Positions 41,213-46,675 of a DNA stretch of 49,325 nt are shown in pieces. The stretch lies in NCBI GenBank assembly GCA_007694005.1, contig RECN01000046.1, positions 1-49,325 of the forward strand, read 5' to 3'. The translations under genes and the position numbers were made by a program. The stretch comes from Spirochaetaceae bacterium. Lineage in GTDB: Bacteria > Spirochaetota > Spirochaetia > DSM-27196 > SKKC01. Under the pieces are notes generated by a model. The model saw nothing but the letters and a program-made list of their open reading frames with translations, ran no database searches and was not told the origin of the DNA. Each line of letters begins with the position of its first letter. The stretch's first letter is position 1.

Positions 41213-42634
41213 TCAGATGTCCGAGTACAGCGCAAACTCGTAGGGATGCGGTCGGGTATCGATCTGCATGACCTCGTTCTCGAGCTTGTACTCGATCCAG
41301 GTCTCCACGACGTCTTTGGTGAACACGTCTCCCTTGAGCAGGAACTCGTGGTCTGCTTCAAGGTGTGCAAGTGCCTCCCGGAGGCTTCCGGGTGTCTTGG
41401 GTACCTTGGCAGCTTCGGCTGCGGGCAGGTCGTAGATGTTCTTGTCGAGGGGCTGGCCCGGATCAATCTTGTTCTGAATACCGTCGATCGCTGCCATGAG
41501 CATGGCACTGAAGGTCAGGTACGCGTTTCCACTCGGGTCCGGGCAGCGGAACTCAAAGCGCTTCGCCTTTTCGCTCTTGGAGTACATCGGGATGCGGACT
41601 GCCGCACTGCGGTTCCGGCTCGAGTAGGCGAGGTTCACGGGAGCCTCAAAGCCCGGTACCAGGCGCTTGTAGCTGTTGGTGGTCGGGTTGCTGAAGGCGA
41701 GCACCGCGGGGGCGTGCTTCAGAAGTCCACCGATAGCGTAGAGTGCAGTCTCGGAGAGGCCGGCGTAGCCATCACCGTAGAACTGATTCTTTCCGTCTTT
41801 CCAGATCGACATGTGCACGTGCATGCCGCTTCCGTTGTCGTTCCACAGCGGCTTGGGCATGAAGGTCACCGTCTTGTTGTGGCGGCGTGCCACGTTCTTG
41901 ATTACGTACTTGTACTTGAGCAGATTGTCTGCCATTTCGACCATGGGCGCAAAGCGCATGTCGATTTCGCACTGACCGCCGGTTGCGACTTCGTGGTGCT
42001 GTGCTTCAATCGAAACACCGAGTGCCTCGAGAATGAGCATCATTTCGCTTCGCATGTCCTGCAGGCTGTCGGTCGGCGGGCAGGGGAAGTAGCCTTCCTT
42101 GTAGCGGGGCTTGTAGCCGAGGTTCGGTTTCTCGTCGCGGCCAGTGTTCCATCGACCTTCAACGGAGTCGACGAAATAGTAGCCTGAGTGCTCGTTCTGG
42201 TCGAAGCGGATGTCGTCGAACACAAAGAATTCCGCTTCCGGGCCGAAGTATATCGTGTCACCAAGACCGGTTGACTTGAGATAGTTCTCCGCCTTGCGGC
42301 ACACGCTTCGGGGATCGCGGGAGTAGTCTTCGCCGCTGATCGGATCGGAAATGTCACAGGTCATGACCAGGGTCTTTGCGGCCATGAAGGGGTCAATGAA
42401 AGCGCTCGAAATGACGGGCTTCATGATCATGTCGCTTTCGTTGATTGCCTGCCATCCGCGGATGCTCGATCCGTCGAATCCGAGACCCTCTGTGAAGGAG
42501 TCTTCGCTTATCTCGTGGGCCGGTACACTGAAATGCTGCCAGAGTCCGGGAAAGTCCATGAAACGAAGGTCTACGACCTGTACGTTTTCCTGCTCGATCA
42601 GATTGAGAATGTCCTTGGGCGAACTATAACTCAT
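41213..42634 (-). CDS. glnA: Glutamine synthetase, type I-beta (adenylylatable)
   Basis: GlnA combines glutamate and ammonia to glutamine, the entry point of nitrogen assimilation. The 473-residue length fits the GSI-beta group. Landmarks are [18 protein letters not shown] (52-69), EAEFFVFD (133-140) with metal-binding Glu, [20 protein letters not shown] (259-278), and NRSAAVRIP (341-349). The adenylylation site is [13 protein letters not shown] with Tyr401, equivalent to E. coli Tyr397, so the enzyme can be switched off by AMP addition. The ATG at 42634 has AGGAGG, and the frame extends to 42661. It stands directly downstream of glnE, the gene for its modifying enzyme. Confidence 0.97.
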
Positions 42635-42736
42635 ATGTGTTCCTCCTGCGTTATTACTCATGGGAAACTACCACACTCCAAACGGAAAGAAAAGTAGGTC
42701 TGCATAAATATTCGGACATTTACGTCAGAAATCGGC

Positions 42737-42766: not shown

Positions 42767-45700
42767 CTATTTCAGACGCTCAAGATGCTCGCGAAAGCTT
42801 GTATGGACTGATTTCATCCGTTCGCGTATGTATTCTGCTACTGCAGTTCCGCCGTGTTCGAAGCGCAGGGTAAATGCGAGCCGGGCGAGGCCGCTTTCGG
42901 TGTCAGGCAGATTGTGCAGTTGCCGGTCCTCGGCGAGCTGCAGAAAGTGCTCGGCCTGCCTCAGGAGCTGATAGTCGTTACTGAGGCTCCGGCTTTCGTT
43001 CTGGTCTATGATGCCTATGTCGGCGAGGCGCGCGAGCGCTGAGAGGGTATCGGGTACAAGGATGCCTGGATGCTCGTGCGCGTGAACGAGCTGCAGGGCC
43101 TGCGCGAGAAACTCTATGTCCCGTATTCCACCTGCTCCGTTCTTGACGTCGGTCTGCCCGTCCTTGACGTGAACATCCCGTGCTGACTGTCGCATTCTGA
43201 TGATCGATGTTGCGACTTCGGTCGCGTCTGCGCGCTCGGCGGCAGCCTCATGGACCACGTTTATGAGCCTTCCCCCGAGCTTCATGGCTCCGGCGACCGG
43301 CCGACACTTGATCATGGCCTGCAGCTCCCAGAGTTCCGCCTCGCGCTGGTAGTATCGCGCTGCCGCGGCGAAGGAAACCACCGGGGGTCCCGCGTCCCCG
43401 TGGGGGCGGAGGCGCAGGTCGACGCGATAGGCCTGACCTTCGTCGGTGAACTCGGTCAGGTCCTGCACAAGGCGCTTGAACACCGCCCTGTAGGTCTTCT
43501 CGGCGTCAGCGTCAGGGCCGGTTTCACTGTTATCGTAGACGGCAAGCAGATCGATGTCCGAGCTGTAGTTAAGCTCCATACCACCGAGTTTGCCGAAGGC
43601 CAGGACGGTAAACGCCGTCGGGACGGCCGACGTTGCAGCCCCTGCGGTTTCGCTGGTCTCTTCGGCCCAGGCTGCCTGCAGCCCGACAAGCAGAATGGCC
43701 CGGGCAAGATTACTGATTTCGGCGGCAGCCTCCGCGACACGAATTCGGAGGCAGAGGTCACGCATGCCGATACGCAGGATCTCGTGTTTCCGGATTCTCC
43801 GGATCGCGTTCTGCCACTCCCTTCGGGATGTACTTCGAGCGTGTGCGGACGTCAGGAGCTGTTGCAGCGTCGCCTCGGTCCGCGGCCGGTTTACGGTCTC
43901 CGGGTCGGTGATCCAGCGAAACAGGTCGGGCTCGCGGATGAGAATGTCGCTCAGAAACTGACTGGTGCCGAAAAGCGTGAACAGGAAGCGTATGCGTTCG
44001 GGTTGAGCGGCGAGTTCGCGGCAGTGTTCCGCCGGTTCCTCGGTGGCGGTCATGAAGCGGTCCCAGTTGTTCAGGGTCATGTCGGGGTCTGGCAGGGCCC
44101 GAAGCGACTCCCAGCCGAGCAGCACCACCCTGGCAAAGAGCATGGAATCGCCGACTTCCGCCTTCATGGCGCAGATATTCTTCCATGCACGGGTCGGATT
44201 GCGTACTCCTATACGTGCGAGTATCTCCTGCCTCAGATCCTCGCTCAGAAGGTCGGCGAGCACGAGATCCGCAGGTCCGGTGCTTCGTGAGCCGGGAATA
44301 GCGTCTTCTCCAAGGTGCCTCTCCACGAAGTCGCGAACGATGGCCGTCTGTGTCTCGAAGTCGATTTCGAGACGGCGGGCTGCAGATACATCCCTGGTAC
44401 GTCGGTATCCGATGCGACGGGCGAGGTGGTTGAATTCACTCGACCCGGGTTTTGGCAGGACGAGATCCTGTGCATTCCCTCGGAGCATGCGCAGCCCGTT
44501 GATAAGCGTGCGCAGGAAGCGGTAGGCGGATACCATAGTTTCCGACTCCCGGTCGTCTATGGTGCCTTCCTCGCTGAGTCCGCGCAGGGCGTCGTGTATG
44601 CCCGGGCAGCGAAGCCGGTGATTATGCCGCCCGTGGGTTATCTGCAGAAGCTGTACGTTGTACTCCAGGTCAACAAGTGCCCCGGGACTGAACTTCGCGT
44701 TGATCCCTTCGGAGGCCTTTTCATCGAACTGGGTTTTCCTGAGTTTCCGCACGTCCGGGACATCGATGCTGTCACTTTCGTAGAGGATCTCGTCCCGAAT
44801 CCGCTCAACCTGTCGGCCGAGCTGCTCGTCGCCACCGATGCGCCGCAGGCGTACCATGGCTATGCGTTCAACCGAGTGGGCAGCGCCGCCTGCCCCGTAG
44901 TACTCGAGAAAGCGGTCGAGTTTCACCGCCAGTGGTCCATCTTTTCCGTGAGGTCGCAGCCTGAGATCGGTCTGGAATATACCCTCGCGCCGGGCGTGCA
45001 CATAGCTGACCGCAACCTGCACGAAGTTCTCAAAAAACACCGCGTTGTCGACCTGCCGGGCATTCGCGTGTTCGGCTGAGGTTCCGTCTGTCGATCCTGA
45101 ATCCGAGTATATGAACAGAAGCTCAATGTCCGATGCGTAGCCGAGTGCCGACCCGCCGAGTTTCCCGAGGCCGAAAACAGCCCATCGGGCGGTCAGCCCG
45201 GCGGCGGTTCTTGGCCGCCCGTAGCGTTCCTCACAGCGCTGCCAGGCGAGGATGCAGGCTGTCTGCACGACCTTCTCGGCGAGCGCAGTAAGTCGTCGGC
45301 TCAAGAAGAAAAAATCGAGGTCGGGTAGGAGCATATGGTCCAGATCGATGAGATACGACTCGCGGTCCTTGAACTCGTTCAGCGCCGCGACCTGCTCGTC
45401 GACCGGGTCACGATCTGCTTCCGACGCCCGTTTCCGGGCTTCCTCCAGAGTCTGGTTCAGAGCGCTCTCGATTTCCTCTTCCGGGGTCGAAAGCGCGGCT
45501 CGATGCTCGATTTTCGTGAGCAGCGGCAGAAGCTGATCCTGCTGTCTGCGAATAAAGTCCTCCCAGAGGAAATCACTCGCGCCGAGCAGCAGGGCGAGTT
45601 CCTGCTGCAGCTCGGTATCCGAAATGATGCGCTGAACGTCTTCCCCGCGGTCCATGTCACGGAAGTCACCGATAAGCCGGTCGAAGCGCTGCATGGCGGC

Positions 45701-46675
45701 ATAGGGGTCCGGCGCGCGGTCGAGCACGAAGGTAAACTGCTTTGTCAGGAGTATGCTCAGACGGATCCGTTCAAGGCGCGCGGCATTGCGTATGCTGCCT
45801 CCGGACGCGTCGCGTATGTCAAACACGTCCCGAATCTGAGACCCTCTGGTCTGAATGAGGACCTGCTCGATTACCACATCGTGCAGGTTCAGCGCATTAC
45901 TGATGCTGTACAGAAAAAACGGTGTGTCCTCACTCGTGACCGAAATCCTGGTGAGTAACTCATCGGTGGAGTCTTCTTCGACGACCCGAATCGGGGCAAG
46001 AACCTGCTGTGTTCCCGGCTCAAGCCCTGCAACCTGTGCCGCGACTTCCTCGGCTACGAACTGTCGGGCGCCGATTTCATCACCCTCGGTCAGATACTCG
46101 AACAGGGTCGTAAACTGCGCTGTGAGTCTGTCTTCGAAGTCGGCTGCTCCGCCTTCGAGACTTCCTTCAAGCTCATCGACAATGACGCGTCCGGGTACTC
46201 CGGATCGGGCGTCATCCCCTGCCCACGAGACCGAGCTTTTCTGCTGCATGAGGCGGGGCAGGTAGGTGCTTCCGACCGCGACACCCGAGCGACCGGTAAA
46301 ACGCCCGCCGCGACGGATTCTGGGTTCCGGCTCCTCCCTTGTTTCGAGCGTATACACGTGTCCGCTTTCGATGTTGAGTCCTGCACCGGCGAGGATGCCG
46401 GTCACGAGGCTGAACATACCCCTGCGATCTGCTGATATAACGGTCACGCGGACGCGATCGCCCGAGCCGTCCTCACTGGCCTGAACGGTCAGCGCGTAAG
46501 GGCTTTCCCGCCGGAGCCTCAGAATATCCTGCAGGTGGGTGATGATTTCGGCGGCTGTGTATCGATTCAGGTAGTTTTCGGGCAGGTGATCGACGATGCG
46601 CTTCAGTCGATCGCGCGAGGTGTTCTTCGCTTCCAGGTCGGATACCAGTTTGCGGACCTGTTCGAGTGATGCCAT
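42767..46675 (-). CDS. glnE: GlnE-type adenylyltransferase fused to a GlnD-like tandem ACT sensor region
   Basis: GlnE adds or removes AMP on glutamine synthetase according to nitrogen status. At 1302 residues it is far longer than typical GlnE (about 950). Two ACT-like domains precede the catalytic part: residues 74-115 (VTVISADRRGMFSLVTGIL) and 242-290 (ISVTSEDTPFFLYSISNALN, ending RDVFDIRDASG). The order, spacing and the preceding LPENYLNRYT...EIITHLQDIL resemble the C-terminal sensor of GlnD. Then come two nucleotidyltransferase domains, with GLGKLGGSALGYASDIELLF (502-521; D516, E518) and AFGKLGGMELNYSSDIDLL (1026-1044; D1040, D1042). The second carries NGAGGIRDIEFLAQ and the first carries SPGALVDLEYNVQ. 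It lies directly upstream of glnA. Direct glutamine sensing by the ACT part is inferred, not proven. Confidence 0.9.
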   Translation of the reverse strand: MASLEQVRKLVSDLEAKNTSRDRLKRIVDHLPENYLNRYTAAEIITHLQDILRLRRESPYALTVQASEDGSGDRVRVTVISADRRGMFSLVTGILAGAGLNIESGHVYTLETREEPEPRIRRGGRFTGRSGVAVGSTYLPRLMQQKSSVSWAGDDARSGVPGRVIVDELEGSLEGGAADFEDRLTAQFTTLFEYLTEGDEIGARQFVAEEVAAQVAGLEPGTQQVLAPIRVVEEDSTDELLTRISVTSEDTPFFLYSISNALNLHDVVIEQVLIQTRGSQIRDVFDIRDASGGSIRNAARLERIRLSILLTKQFTFVLDRAPDPYAAMQRFDRLIGDFRDMDRGEDVQRIISDTELQQELALLLGASDFLWEDFIRRQQDQLLPLLTKIEHRAALSTPEEEIESALNQTLEEARKRASEADRDPVDEQVAALNEFKDRESYLIDLDHMLLPDLDFFFLSRRLTALAEKVVQTACILAWQRCEERYGRPRTAAGLTARWAVFGLGKLGGSALGYASDIELLFIYSDSGSTDGTSAEHANARQVDNAVFFENFVQVAVSYVHARREGIFQTDLRLRPHGKDGPLAVKLDRFLEYYGAGGAAHSVERIAMVRLRRIGGDEQLGRQVERIRDEILYESDSIDVPDVRKLRKTQFDEKASEGINAKFSPGALVDLEYNVQLLQITHGRHNHRLRCPGIHDALRGLSEEGTIDDRESETMVSAYRFLRTLINGLRMLRGNAQDLVLPKPGSSEFNHLARRIGYRRTRDVSAARRLEIDFETQTAIVRDFVERHLGEDAIPGSRSTGPADLVLADLLSEDLRQEILARIGVRNPTRAWKNICAMKAEVGDSMLFARVVLLGWESLRALPDPDMTLNNWDRFMTATEEPAEHCRELAAQPERIRFLFTLFGTSQFLSDILIREPDLFRWITDPETVNRPRTEATLQQLLTSAHARSTSRREWQNAIRRIRKHEILRIGMRDLCLRIRVAEAAAEISNLARAILLVGLQAAWAEETSETAGAATSAVPTAFTVLAFGKLGGMELNYSSDIDLLAVYDNSETGPDADAEKTYRAVFKRLVQDLTEFTDEGQAYRVDLRLRPHGDAGPPVVSFAAAARYYQREAELWELQAMIKCRPVAGAMKLGGRLINVVHEAAAERADATEVATSIIRMRQSARDVHVKDGQTDVKNGAGGIRDIEFLAQALQLVHAHEHPGILVPDTLSALARLADIGIIDQNESRSLSNDYQLLRQAEHFLQLAEDRQLHNLPDTESGLARLAFTLRFEHGGTAVAEYIRERMKSVHTSFREHLERLK

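Follow-up and report, generated by a model that had tools for sequence, protein, structure and literature searches.

The window analysed here, a stretch of 49,325 nucleotides, is contig C166 of a Spirochaetaceae genome of 3.9 Mb in 204 contigs, which is 96% complete. On its minus strand it carries a glnE gene fused to a sensor region of GlnD type, and as next downstream gene, on the same strand, a glnA gene. The parts of the fused protein, including its two nucleotidyltransferase (NT) domains, and of glnA are as follows.

42767..46675, minus strand: fused glnE, intact open reading frame of 1302 aa (sensor of GlnD type, followed by the first and the second NT domain)
46499..46675, minus strand: residues 1-59, helical segment; its counterpart in GlnD sits between the HD domain and ACT1 (TIGR01693, hhalign)
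46088..46498, minus strand: residues 60-196, ACT1, carrying D83-R-R-G86 (AlphaFold models, hhalign to GlnD ACT1)
46199..46336, minus strand: residues 114-159, variable-length loop within ACT1, low confidence (AlphaFold pLDDT <50)
45716..45988, minus strand: residues 230-320, ACT2, with conserved D250-T-P-x-F-L-Y (AlphaFold models, NF003467 positions 833-919, census of 69 relatives)
44306..45598, minus strand: residues 360-790, first NT domain, with D516-x-E518 motif and GALVDLEY, probably of adenylyltransferase (AT) type
42767..44098, minus strand: residues 860-1302, second NT domain and helical flank, with SDID motif and GGIRDIEF, probably of adenylyl-removing (AR) type
41213..42661, minus strand: glnA, type I glutamine synthetase (TIGR00653, 663 bits for a cut-off of 429)
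41432..41434, minus strand: codon of GlnA Tyr410, an adenylylation-type tyrosine, in NIYDLP

The preliminary description of this DNA had placed two GlnE-type NT domains in a single 1302-residue chain, and this holds: the Pfam model PF03710 matched the protein twice (E 1.5e-95), and the score on the NCBIfam GlnE model NF008292, 571 bits, exceeded the cut-off of 487. An acidic catalytic motif is present in both domains (D516-x-E518 in the first, SDID in the second), and the D and E of the first were invariant in 69/69 relatives. A D-x-E pair is also used by kanamycin nucleotidyltransferase. The protein is best identified as a predicted bifunctional glutamine synthetase adenylyltransferase / adenylyl-removing enzyme, as part of the reading proposed below. 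No HD domain was found in it, and all GlnD models scored far below their cut-offs. Tyr410 of the adjacent GlnA is presumably the equivalent of the tyrosine adenylylated in E. coli GlnA, and the YDLP motif was present in all 29 GlnA matches found beside the fused gene in relatives. No sigma-54 promoter was detected close ahead of the fused gene, and the count of such sites across the window was in line with chance expectation.

The N-terminal sensor region

Two GlnD models matched the N-terminus of the fused protein: positions 602-704 of TIGR01693 on residues 6-110, and positions 833-919 of NF003467 on residues 222-308 (E 1.8e-21). Both were matched by 11/11 members of the first alignment. A profile-profile comparison (hhalign) with an alignment of E. 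coli and spirochaete GlnD gave a probability of 98.4% (E 8.6e-15), with a single colinear alignment of 225 columns onto GlnD residues 628-857. The structure prediction proposed in the preliminary description showed two ACT folds, both for residues 1-398 (pTM 0.79) and for residues 1-791 (pTM 0.84). ACT1 consists of strands 60-66 and 74-82, helix 87-97, strands 100-111 and 163-173 and helix 180-196; ACT2 of strands 230-234 and 242-249, helix 254-264, strands 268-277 and 280-288 and helix 298-320. The Pfam ACT model reached 19.1 bits, under its own cut-off of 27, so that a domain search, as had also been proposed, recovered PF03710 and the GlnD models and left the evidence for ACT to the GlnD match and the fold.

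The predicted topology corrects one detail of the earlier picture, in which two ACT domains were split by a long linker. The two domains are there, but the supposed linker (residues ~114-159) lies inside ACT1, as a low-confidence loop between the second and third core strands; the stretch 112-162 that contains it varied from 3 to 53 residues across 69 relatives. Foldseek searches with the ACT region returned ACT-bearing proteins (180-kDa glutamate dehydrogenase, ACT-like domains, PGDH), the best match being the large 180-kDa glutamate dehydrogenase (7jsr); a profile search of PDB sequences produced no complete match. This dehydrogenase was considered as the origin of the ACT domains and rejected, GlnD being far better by sequence. 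Judged by sequence profile and predicted fold, the N-terminal region of the fused GlnE is the entire C-terminal sensor of GlnD, which upholds the fusion to a GlnD-like tandem-ACT region first noted at this locus. GlnD is held to sense glutamine via its two C-terminal ACT domains (PMC3173338).

Conservation within the region is uneven. In the census of 69 relatives, D83, D250, T251, F254 and D283 were nearly unchanged over many phyla, which suggests a retained ligand function of the ACT pair; in the helical segment, Y35 was kept in 65/69 and H47 in 63/69. The glycine between beta1 and alpha1 of ACT domains is linked to ligand binding. This position was G in 30/69 ACT1 and in 3/69 ACT2 domains. 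Its loss was dropped as proof against glutamine binding, because E. coli GlnD itself carries a Tyr there in ACT1, according to the hhalign alignment.

Distribution of the fusion and of its partners

One scan of 84,980 species genomes yielded 216 relatives of the fused GlnE, and the best 80 of these bore about ten phylum-level names (as in the records): Spirochaetota, Deltaproteobacteria/Desulfobacterales, Lentisphaerae, Firestonebacteria, Goldiibacteriota, FCPU426, Phycisphaeraceae, Verrucomicrobiota, Sumerlaeota and Chitinivibrionales. One match, at 96% identity, was in a Spirochaetaceae MAG (isolate CSSed162cmB_249). In a sample of 247 genomes of the phylum, the full fusion was present in nine besides the host, and variants in three. 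From the spread of the relatives in the scan, we conclude that the fusion is old. One fused protein (L093, 6254-10675) has ~200 additional residues before the sensor, which could form a further domain or result from a misplaced start codon.

In every case, stand-alone and rearranged chains included, the ACT pair directly precedes the D-x-E NT domain, and S-D-x-E was read in 87/87 of the motifs found in the NT domain after the pair. Stand-alone ACT-ACT-NT modules are encoded in L068 (3475-5745, 756 aa), in G011 (contig C34) and in G024 (806 aa), where a different contig encodes the remaining NT domain. A second GlnE-type domain was not found in the L068 and G011 genomes; possibly these adenylylate without the usual remover, or they are incomplete MAGs. 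The sensor of G035 (L034, L020), formed by the GlnD helical segment and both ACT domains, lies between the two catalytic domains of a 1602-aa chain.

The host genome has a single PII gene, adjoining amtB. No glnD was detected in it, GlnD-model matches being limited to the fused protein and one HD protein. Presence counts for glnD and PII in the following are those of genomes related by descent, and are not counts of independent events: glnD was found in none of the 13 spirochaete genomes with the ACT-NT module (host included), and in 7 of the 12 examined with unfused GlnE; a PII match came from the host and from 10 of the other 12 module-bearing genomes, the two that gave none, G024 and G035, being only 83% and 75% complete. 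The five unfused genomes without glnD belong to family f40 (G052, G059, G084, G109, G114); in this family the C-terminal NT domain of GlnE is very divergent (branch length ~4 in one tree). In relatives, the neighbours of the fused gene are often glnA or amtB-PII, and PII is its immediate neighbour in many. The route without GlnD and PII that had been proposed for this locus therefore survives in one half: GlnD is undetected in the host and GlnA is the next gene, but PII is present beside amtB, and in many relatives beside the fused gene itself.

Beyond the first sample, the fusion and glnD occurred together in 14 genomes, all with Desulfobacterota-type names, and glnD was absent from the other 16 genomes tested alongside. 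The idea that the fusion replaces GlnD everywhere was therefore rejected: the sensor is not simply a substitute throughout. In L079 (CP070692.1, bin617), glnD, PII, amtB, glnA and the fused glnE all lie within 15 kb, the fused gene being partly masked in the record. Three short open frames of 206-221 aa in G220 (C219, C67, C289), whose genome also carries a full glnD, match the ACT end of GlnD only.

Proposed glutamine signal and order of the NT domains

The reading that we prefer, with a probability of about 0.62, builds on direct observations (the sequences of the parts and their predicted folds, conservation, gene context, no detectable glnD); we infer from there the ligand, the direction of its effect, the domain order and the part of PII. 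GlnE would have acquired the C-terminal sensor of GlnD directly before the D-x-E NT domain, probably the adenylylating one, which would be followed by the deadenylylating domain. Glutamine bound by the ACT pair would favour adenylylation of GlnA at Tyr410 and/or oppose its removal, and a fall in glutamine would reverse the balance and reactivate glutamine synthetase (GS). Since the host has no detectable glnD, the glutamine signal would reach GS there without PII uridylylation. PII, through 2-oxoglutarate and the ATP/ADP state, would supply a second input; its gene in the host, and its place next to the fused gene in many relatives, make it probable that PII still acts on the fused GlnE. As glutamine and PII are both known to act on E. 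coli GlnE (PMC6490700), the novelty would reside in the sensor and its origin, not in glutamine control itself.

Alternatively, the ACT pair could sense another amino acid, or be a structural module for dimerisation or PII docking; GlnE would then be controlled, like its E. coli counterpart, by PII and by a glutamine site of its own. E. coli GlnE has no ACT domain and yet responds to glutamine (PMC6490700), which would suit this explanation, as would the frequent replacement of the glycine in ACT1 and ACT2, the frequent adjacency of PII and the retention of glnD in Desulfobacterota-type genomes. It accounts less well for a source that is specifically the whole sensor end of GlnD, for the near-constancy of D83, D250, T251, F254 and D283 over many phyla, and for the absence of glnD from the host and from most lineages with the fusion. 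We regard it as unlikely, if a serious contender.

In E. coli GlnE, the AR domain is N-terminal and the AT domain C-terminal (PMC12409994). Reading the order in the fused protein from position alone was dropped as unsafe, since trees, HMM scores and NCBIfam placements point to the reverse. An order ACT-ACT-AT-AR, permuted relative to E. coli, is thus favoured and quite likely, though not proven. The canonical order, ACT-ACT-AR-AT, would join the sensor to the deadenylylating domain, and glutamine would then mainly block deadenylylation. Against it, AR domains grouped with the second NT domain in trees (support 95/95), quartet counts favoured the permuted order (74%, versus 13% for the canonical one), and AR HMMs outscored AT HMMs on the second NT domain by 71-126 bits in 31/31 proteins. 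Summed over both domains, the permuted order was 50-108 bits better, again in 31/31, an advantage driven by the second domain; taken by itself, the first NT domain slightly preferred the AR model in 26/31. One motif position is a conserved Arg in AR domains, GlnD and the second NT domain; the first NT domain and most AT domains have Val there. On NCBIfam models, the second NT domain aligned with the AR half, and the first one, where it stands alone, with the AT half. Foldseek with the first NT domain leaned marginally to the canonical order (1v4a, E. coli AR, E 2.8e-17; 3k7d, E. coli AT, 1.2e-15). This order was retained as a rival because AU tests did not reject it (p 0.074 and 0.205) and because, in a larger quick-tree run, the tree constrained to it outscored the free tree, the latter being under-searched. 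On balance, we regard the canonical order as improbable.

That the first NT domain modifies Tyr51 of PII, besides or in place of GlnA, thus merging the activities of GlnD and GlnE, is very improbable: Tyr51 is kept in the PII of the 10 fused genomes without glnD that were read, the sensor derives from GlnD, and mycobacteria are known to modify PII with AMP (PMC3612183), but the NT domain groups with GlnE and not GlnD, there is no HD domain for removal, and Tyr51 is also present in the PII of spirochaetes without GlnE and GlnD (L139, L154). Because these last genomes keep it, Tyr51 is uninformative, and was dropped as evidence for or against uridylylation.

Significance and comparison with known systems

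Control of GS by GlnD, PII and GlnE is the textbook cascade, and many bacteria have GlnE without GlnD. The fusion, present in hundreds of poorly known bacteria, could shorten this cascade. No description of a GlnE with ACT domains was found in the open-access literature (subscription papers being outside the scope), so that ACT-GlnE is apparently an undescribed, though real and widespread, architecture of a known enzyme. More tentatively, at somewhat less than even odds, it may represent a third, old layout of GS control in about ten phylum-level groups, with a rearranged ACT-ACT-AT-AR GlnE that perceives glutamine through the ACT pair derived from GlnD; where GlnD is missing, the two-cycle cascade would be reduced to one protein and an unmodified PII. 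In Spirochaetota, Lentisphaerae and Verrucomicrobiota, among others, a GlnE with GlnD's own sensor would offer a direct, testable glutamine route to GS. The ACT-NT module would provide a small unit for studying the glutamine signal on a single catalytic domain. An NCBI-style label "GlnE" would mask this different regulatory input.

Compared with E. coli GlnE (1v4a, 3k7d), the fused protein shares the pair of homologous, helix-flanked NT domains and, in all likelihood, the type I GlnA target at a conserved tyrosine; it differs by ~300 additional N-terminal residues from GlnD, by the D-x-E of its first NT domain and probably by the reversed AT/AR order. Like the C-terminal part of GlnD, it runs from the post-HD helical segment through ACT1 to ACT2, but it is devoid of the NT and HD catalytic domains of GlnD, contains an extra variable loop within ACT1, and reads D-T-P-[FA] in the ACT2 loop, where GlnD has D-x-P-G. 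Plant ACR proteins likewise have tandem GlnD-related ACT domains and are proposed sensors (PMC3173338), but lack nucleotidyltransferase domains. Finally, the 180-kDa glutamate dehydrogenase (7jsr) is also an enzyme of nitrogen metabolism whose ACT domains are N-terminal, but its catalytic part is unrelated and its sequence match far weaker than that of GlnD.
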